Source: an uncultured Ilumatobacter sp. (GTDB lineage Bacteria > Actinomycetota > Acidimicrobiia > Acidimicrobiales > Ilumatobacteraceae). Taken from it: a stretch of DNA of 64,000 bases. Positions 53,653 through 53,758 of the stretch are shown here, piece by piece. The stretch is from assembly GCA_937919625.1 (NCBI GenBank), contig CALFRK010000002.1, forward strand, positions 1 through 64,000, given 5' to 3'. Positions within the stretch are counted from its first letter, which is position 1. Every line of letters starts with the position of its first letter. Below the pieces are notes generated by a model that was not told the DNA's origin, made no database searches, and saw only the letters and a list, made by a program, of their open reading frames with translations. The position numbers were made by a program, and so were the translations under genes.

Positions 53653-53687
53653 AAAAATGGAAGTGCCCCCGGCCGGGCGGCGGGGGC
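53653..53687 (-). terminator. leuA attenuator-type hairpin GCCCCCG..CGGGGGC followed by ACTTCCATTTTT
   Basis: 7-bp GC stem (53665-53687) with TTTTT on the minus strand at 53657-53653. Confidence 0.65.
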
Positions 53688-53717
53688 GGGCGAACGTGAA
53701 TATGTGCGCGTTCGCCC
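53688..53717 (-). promoter_or_regulatory. leuA leader hairpin GGGCGAACG-(12 nt)-CGTTCGCCC
   Basis: Perfect 9-bp inverted repeat immediately after the leader peptide stop. Confidence 0.7.
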
Positions 53718-53758
53718 TACGTAAGCAGAAGCAGGTGGCGCGCCGACGTTCCAGTCAT
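53717..53758 (-). CDS. leuA leader peptide MTGTSARHLLLLT
   Basis: ATG ACT GGA ACG TCG GCG CGC CAC CTG CTT CTG CTT ACG TAG; four consecutive Leu codons upstream of leuA. Confidence 0.75.
   Translation of the reverse strand: MTGTSARHLLLLT

Follow-up and report, generated by a model that had tools for sequence, protein, structure and literature searches.

The window, a stretch of 64,000 nt from a contig of an uncultured Ilumatobacter sp., carries on its minus strand a leuA gene preceded by a short Leu-rich leader ORF and two adjoining hairpins, the whole element ending 60 nt ahead of leuA. The parts are as follows.

51914–53593, minus strand: leuA, 2-isopropylmalate synthase, 559 aa, start at 53593; the proposed regulated gene
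53603–53607, minus strand: leuA Shine-Dalgarno AGGAG, from the sequence
53653–53664, minus strand: U-rich predicted terminator tail ACTTCCATTTTT, read from the sequence
53665–53687, minus strand: hairpin B, predicted terminator hairpin, from the sequence and covarying pairs
53688–53717, minus strand: hairpin A, proposed ribosome-position sensor, from the sequence, covarying pairs and fold prediction
53717–53758, minus strand: leader ORF MTGTSARHLLLLT, a 13-residue peptide, with ATG at 53758 and TAG stop at 53719–53717
53768–53773, minus strand: putative −10 TAAGCT (TANNNT), 9 nt before the leader ATG
53792–53797, minus strand: putative −35 TTGCCA, 18 nt before the −10, by resemblance to the consensus only
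53525–55189, plus strand: DEAD-box helicase, the divergent neighbour, whose probable start is 63 nt from the leader ORF

A sequence-only reading of this DNA had the leader peptide, its coordinates and both stems right. MTGTSARHLLLLT runs from 53758 to 53717 on the minus strand and contains four Leu codons, CTG CTT CTG CTT, then one further codon and the stop. The hairpin that had been placed right after the peptide is there, with nine perfect pairs between GGGCGAACG (53717–53709) and CGTTCGCCC (53696–53688); more finely, its first pair already includes the stop codon's final base, which is the first G of hairpin A. Hairpin B follows at a gap of 0 nt, with the arms GCCCCCG (53687–53681) and CGGGGGC (53671–53665). 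The GC hairpin and TTTTT run named in that reading are both present, but the TTTTT begins 7 nt past the hairpin B stem, so that the U-tract is interrupted and hairpin B alone is not a textbook terminator. A scan of the window for consensus promoters and terminators flagged neither the leader promoter nor hairpin B. The folding energy of the region spanning both hairpins is far below that of shuffled sequence (z −4.8, reached by 0 of 200 shuffles).

Relatives were searched with the LeuA protein and their upstream regions inspected afterwards, the element itself not being used as bait. Of 29 intact leuA loci identified through protein similarity, 27 have the same element, comprising 24 of 26 from 40 relatives and all 3 from named Acidimicrobiia/Actinomycetota MAGs; the name of the class is taken from such named relatives, for example L033. 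Covarying stems and conserved Leu codons, which the sequence-only reading would lead one to expect among relatives, are both seen. In a sequence-only alignment 86% of the cells of the two stems are paired versus 80% in shuffles, and double changes are seen in 35 cells, where shuffles give 10.9 and sliding gives no more than 12. Among 154 distinct elements, Leu is found in 148 at codon −2, in 146 at codon −3 and in 147 at codon −4, counted from the stop. Of 296 genomes in the class, 175 have a match to a covariance model of the element, with E-values down to 8e-16; in a search of the phylum the model matched 37 of 398 genomes, only five of them outside the class. A hairpin of 9 bp or more that begins at the stop codon is present in 89% of 173 elements, versus 1% after shuffling.

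The gene that comes next is strikingly uniform in function. A BCAA gene lies downstream of 153 of the 154 distinct elements, namely leuA type I (89), leuA type II (48), ilvB (10), leuS (5) and cimA (1); the remaining element, L075, has no BCAA gene match within its available stretch. The two leuA types are non-orthologous. Two genomes have a pair of leuA genes, both preceded by a copy of the element (L072 and L109 in G117; L097 and L133 in G173), and the pair in G173 probably represents the two different LeuA types. A Trp version of the element before trpE was not found in the ten relatives searched for it.

The layout of the element is equally strict. A near-invariant triplet of amino-acid codons, one further codon and the stop keep constant spacing, and hairpin A begins at stop+2 to stop+4, that is, on the final stop-codon base or 1–2 nt after it, in all 154 elements. 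Its stem is mostly 9–12 bp long, with a median energy of −18 kcal/mol. The gap between the two hairpins is 0–4 nt in 133 of 154 elements, and at least six T residues fall within 12 nt after hairpin B in 137. CAUA stands in the loop of hairpin A (53697–53708 in the window, for example) in 52 elements of the 154, where shuffled loops would give 2.8; no partner for it was found, and a segment complementarity test gave no signal for a kissing contact between loop A and either loop B or the leader start. An interaction between the GC-rich segment after the U-tract and the hairpin B loop, suggestive by eye in the genus of the window, was rejected, as it displayed neither covariation nor specific complementarity. 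The last codon before the stop is also restricted: 105 of the 154 elements have Thr or Met there, with ACG, ATG and ACC commonest and TCG or CCG in the Ile leaders.

The identity of the leader codons follows the gene downstream. Codons −5 to −2 are 85% Leu in leuA leaders, 40% Val, 32% Leu and 21% Ile in ilvB leaders, and 81% Ile in cimA leaders. The hairpin sequences of these three groups are unrelated, and the order of stop, hairpin and hairpin is common to all. The genome of the window holds two further copies.

L200:1501–1583 (contig C24:15305–15387): copy before ilvB, leader MRAHTSTLVVLIY
L201:1501–1577 (contig C2:70923–70999, just beyond the window): copy before cimA (citramalate synthase), leader MRIELAIMLIP

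In both, the leader (Ile codons in the case of MRIELAIMLIP) is followed by a hairpin flush with the stop codon and a terminator-like hairpin. The ilvB copy is a weak match to the covariance model (25 bits, E 0.06) and is conserved in relatives (L269–L272, L274 and L276); ilvB leaders of relatives end in LVVLID, LVVILD, SLLVIT and similar sequences. In the cimA leaders of relatives the last codon is preceded by III or IIII, giving ends such as AIIIIP, VIIIC, FIIIP and VAIIIIT. At two cimA loci, L264 and L267, no leader was seen at the fetched coordinates, which were themselves extrapolated from partial matches. The choice of Leu codon is biased as well: CTT makes up 39.6% of Leu codons in the leaders versus 5.9% in the downstream genes, an enrichment of about 7-fold.

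Leader codons that specify the amino acid of the regulated gene (Leu, Val/Leu/Ile or Ile), together with a covarying, predicted U-tract terminator hairpin between peptide and gene, are what an attenuator calls for. A constitutive terminator or a chance short ORF, with no regulation by leucine, is extremely improbable: the gene upstream points the other way and calls for no terminator at this place, and neither would account for the match of codons to genes over leuA, ilvB and cimA or for the adjoining BCAA genes. Attenuation governed by ribosome position, a leader switch controlled by translation, is the sole reading that explains the codon–gene match, and on this comparative evidence it very probably applies. 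The ribosome-mediated attenuation proposed in the sequence-only reading gains strong support from the conserved Leu codons, the covarying stems, the codon-matched BCAA copies, the rare-codon bias and the terminator-like second hairpin. The leaderless promoter, the spacing of Leu, one codon and stop, and the spread of the element through a whole family are additions to that reading.

The start of the leader transcript could be approached through the promoter motif. Of 154 elements, 83 have TANNNT placed 5–11 nt ahead of an in-frame start of the leader, versus 8.5% in shuffled upstream sequence, and the spacing between motif and leader start has its mode at 7 nt. This closeness indicates that the leader peptides would be translated from leaderless transcripts. 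Leaderless Leu leaders have been reported for leuS and leuA of Streptomyces lividans (PMC8079986).

How ribosome position might be sensed was modeled by folding the leader under ribosome masks. The masks were drawn from the established ribosome footprint, which extends 15 nt past the first P-site base. The probability of hairpin A falls from 0.99 for a ribosome at the first Leu codon to 0.49 at the last Leu codon and 0.00 at the stop. Hairpin B stays at about 0.97 at all masked positions. Ribosome position is thus predicted to toggle hairpin A but not hairpin B. Roughly the 5′ arm of hairpin A would be covered once the stop codon occupies the ribosomal A site; as long as the ribosome is held at the first Leu codon, that hairpin is free. 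As hairpin B is predicted to be folded wherever the ribosome stands, base pairing alone leaves the control unexplained.

A classical attenuator of the trp/his type would supply the missing link through an antiterminator (2:3) that competes with the terminator (3:4), here perhaps too weak or divergent to be seen, and the comparative evidence for leader-peptide attenuation fits that reading equally well. A pairwise covariation scan of 100 aligned elements recovered only helices A and B and an extension of B, with no third helix. In a permutation test over all segment pairs only the arms of A (z −38) and of B (z −31) were strongly complementary; all other pairs lay within |z| 6, and no strong competitor for the arms of hairpin B appeared among them. 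As a positive control we used 27 His leaders from 399 proteobacterial genomes. In equilibrium folding with ribosome masks, the terminator folds regardless of the ribosome in classical his leaders too; that test is therefore not diagnostic and was replaced by co-transcriptional folding, in which the transcript is folded before the 3′ arm of the terminator exists. For a ribosome placed over the regulatory codons, the median upstream pairing of the terminator 5′ arm is 0.01 here and 0.72 in his leaders; moving the ribosome to the stop gives 0.25 and 0.36, so that the shift runs in the wrong direction for an antiterminator. Complementarity of the terminator arm to the 60 nt upstream gives z +1.2 here and −3.0 in his leaders. 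The classic architecture of amino-acid attenuation that the sequence-only reading had seen at this locus, with mutually exclusive structures to be found by RNA folding, finds no support: covariation, complementarity and co-transcriptional folding revealed no antiterminator here, while the his controls show one. The sensor hairpin is detectable and a competing antiterminator helix is not, and we regard the classical mechanism as quite improbable.

Comparison among genomes shows the leader, its codon identity, both stems, the spacing and the promoter motif; we infer termination at hairpin B, the direction of control and the read-out, in the following course. Transcription would probably begin on the leader ATG or in its immediate vicinity, giving leaderless translation of the peptide. 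With ample Leu-tRNA the ribosome would reach the stop and cover about 10 nt past it, that is, the 5′ arm of hairpin A. The loop and 3′ arm of hairpin A would then be free slack, and hairpin B would fold and, with the U-tract, end transcription. With scarce Leu-tRNA the ribosome would halt some 10–15 nt upstream, on the Leu run with its rare CTT codons, hairpin A would fold flush between ribosome and hairpin B, and polymerase would read through into leuA. Folded hairpin A may act by absorbing about 25–30 nt of slack, pressing itself and the stalled ribosome against the RNA polymerase exit and thereby hindering hairpin B sterically. We favor this steric or tether read-out because the two hairpins occupy separate stretches and an antiterminator is not conserved, and it predicts strict spacing with free hairpin sequence, as observed; we nevertheless offer it tentatively.

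The main alternative to this read-out is a role in pausing. Pause hairpins occur in trp and his leaders, and hairpin A could chiefly halt the polymerase and synchronize it with the ribosome, hairpin B being read out via coupling factors such as NusG and NusA. Hairpin A is strong, forms just before hairpin B and has the conserved CAUA loop, all of which would suit a pause signal. A pause hairpin, however, needs neither a fixed gap of 0–4 nt to the terminator nor an onset on the stop codon, and both are conserved. We consider a mainly pausing role rather unlikely.

Leu-rich leaders before leuA and leuS are already known in other Actinobacteria. The closest relative by position is the LEU element (Seliverstov et al. 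2005, PMC1262725), which lies before leuA in the same phylum, in most Actinobacteria, and whose Leu run can pair with the Shine-Dalgarno sequence. There it is described as one long hairpin or a pseudoknot overlapping the peptide, with no terminator. The Acidimicrobiia element differs in having a Leu run, one codon, the stop and two separate hairpins, the second with a conserved U-tract. Several actinomycete leuA leaders (L034, L037, L039–L041, L043 and L047) resemble the LEU element and not the two-hairpin element. The leuA leader of S. coelicolor lacks the terminator of the two-hairpin element, and mutations of its leader codons are described as having effects inconsistent with classical attenuation (PMC1262725). 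The leuA leader of C. glutamicum has four consecutive Leu codons (PMC4046766).

Translational control of the LEU type, in which the Leu run pairs with the leuA Shine-Dalgarno until a stalled ribosome or a protein frees it, would have the right direction and could work jointly with hairpin B. In the window a 6-bp CUUCUG/CAGGAG pairing is present in the minimum free energy (MFE) fold of the whole leader. Any CTC/CTT run, however, looks like an anti-Shine-Dalgarno, and specific complementarity is not conserved across genomes, the Leu run being a poorer complement of the sequence downstream of it than of the equivalent sequences from other genomes (z +3.1). The Ile-run cimA and Val/Ile-rich ilvB leaders have the same layout without such complementarity, and the conserved terminator would be left unexplained. 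We judge this mode of control very improbable. A DEAD-box-domain protein (ML1624 orthologs) is named as a candidate LEU-element regulator in PMC1262725; the adjacency of a DEAD-box helicase to the leuA leader of the window may be coincidental. TTGCCC follows just past the U-tract in 15 of 154 elements versus 3 expected, and TTGCCCGG likewise stands after the hairpin in Arthrobacter-type LEU elements (L039, L040 and L043), hinting at a possible shared origin of the two element types.

The attenuators of Streptomyces leuS and ilvB and of Corynebacterium ilvBNC are alike in their short, mostly leaderless peptides rich in Leu, Ile or Val, their hairpins and their U-stretch (PMC8079986, PMC1262725). 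Going by description, unaligned, they differ: the excerpts of these sources describe for neither the strict spacing of Leu, one codon, stop, hairpin and hairpin, nor a single layout over leuA, ilvB, leuS and cimA. The proteobacterial Leu_leader (RF00512) and His_leader (RF00514) share the ribosome stall on cognate leader codons ahead of a terminator, but have a base-paired antiterminator, which the Acidimicrobiia element, compared with his leaders, lacks. Rfam models, including T-box and other leaders, gave no match to the window at the gathering score and only chance matches, with E up to 5, at a permissive threshold. Among open-licence papers, none was found linking Acidimicrobiia with leader-peptide attenuation. 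Chlorobium leuA (L046 and L048) has, about 180 nt upstream, a short ORF rich in Leu (MNLCSLLFLLLSSALLSSG...) together with a hairpin that ends in a U tail, possibly a separate attenuator.

The two-hairpin BCAA attenuator is absent from Rfam and distinct from the actinobacterial LEU element. We consider it likely that the leuA attenuator is one copy of a class-wide BCAA leader family, including its leaderless start and direction of control. It is conceivable, though doubtful, that throughout the class a sensor hairpin between stop and terminator relays the stall sterically or by tether length without a competing antiterminator helix, and that the device is retuned to Leu, Ile or Val/Leu/Ile by codon swaps only. 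The family is an undescribed one that appears to control Leu, Ile and Val synthesis across a large and hardly studied environmental class of actinobacteria. It offers a natural case of leader-peptide attenuation seemingly without the textbook antiterminator, which makes a new ribosome–polymerase read-out directly testable.
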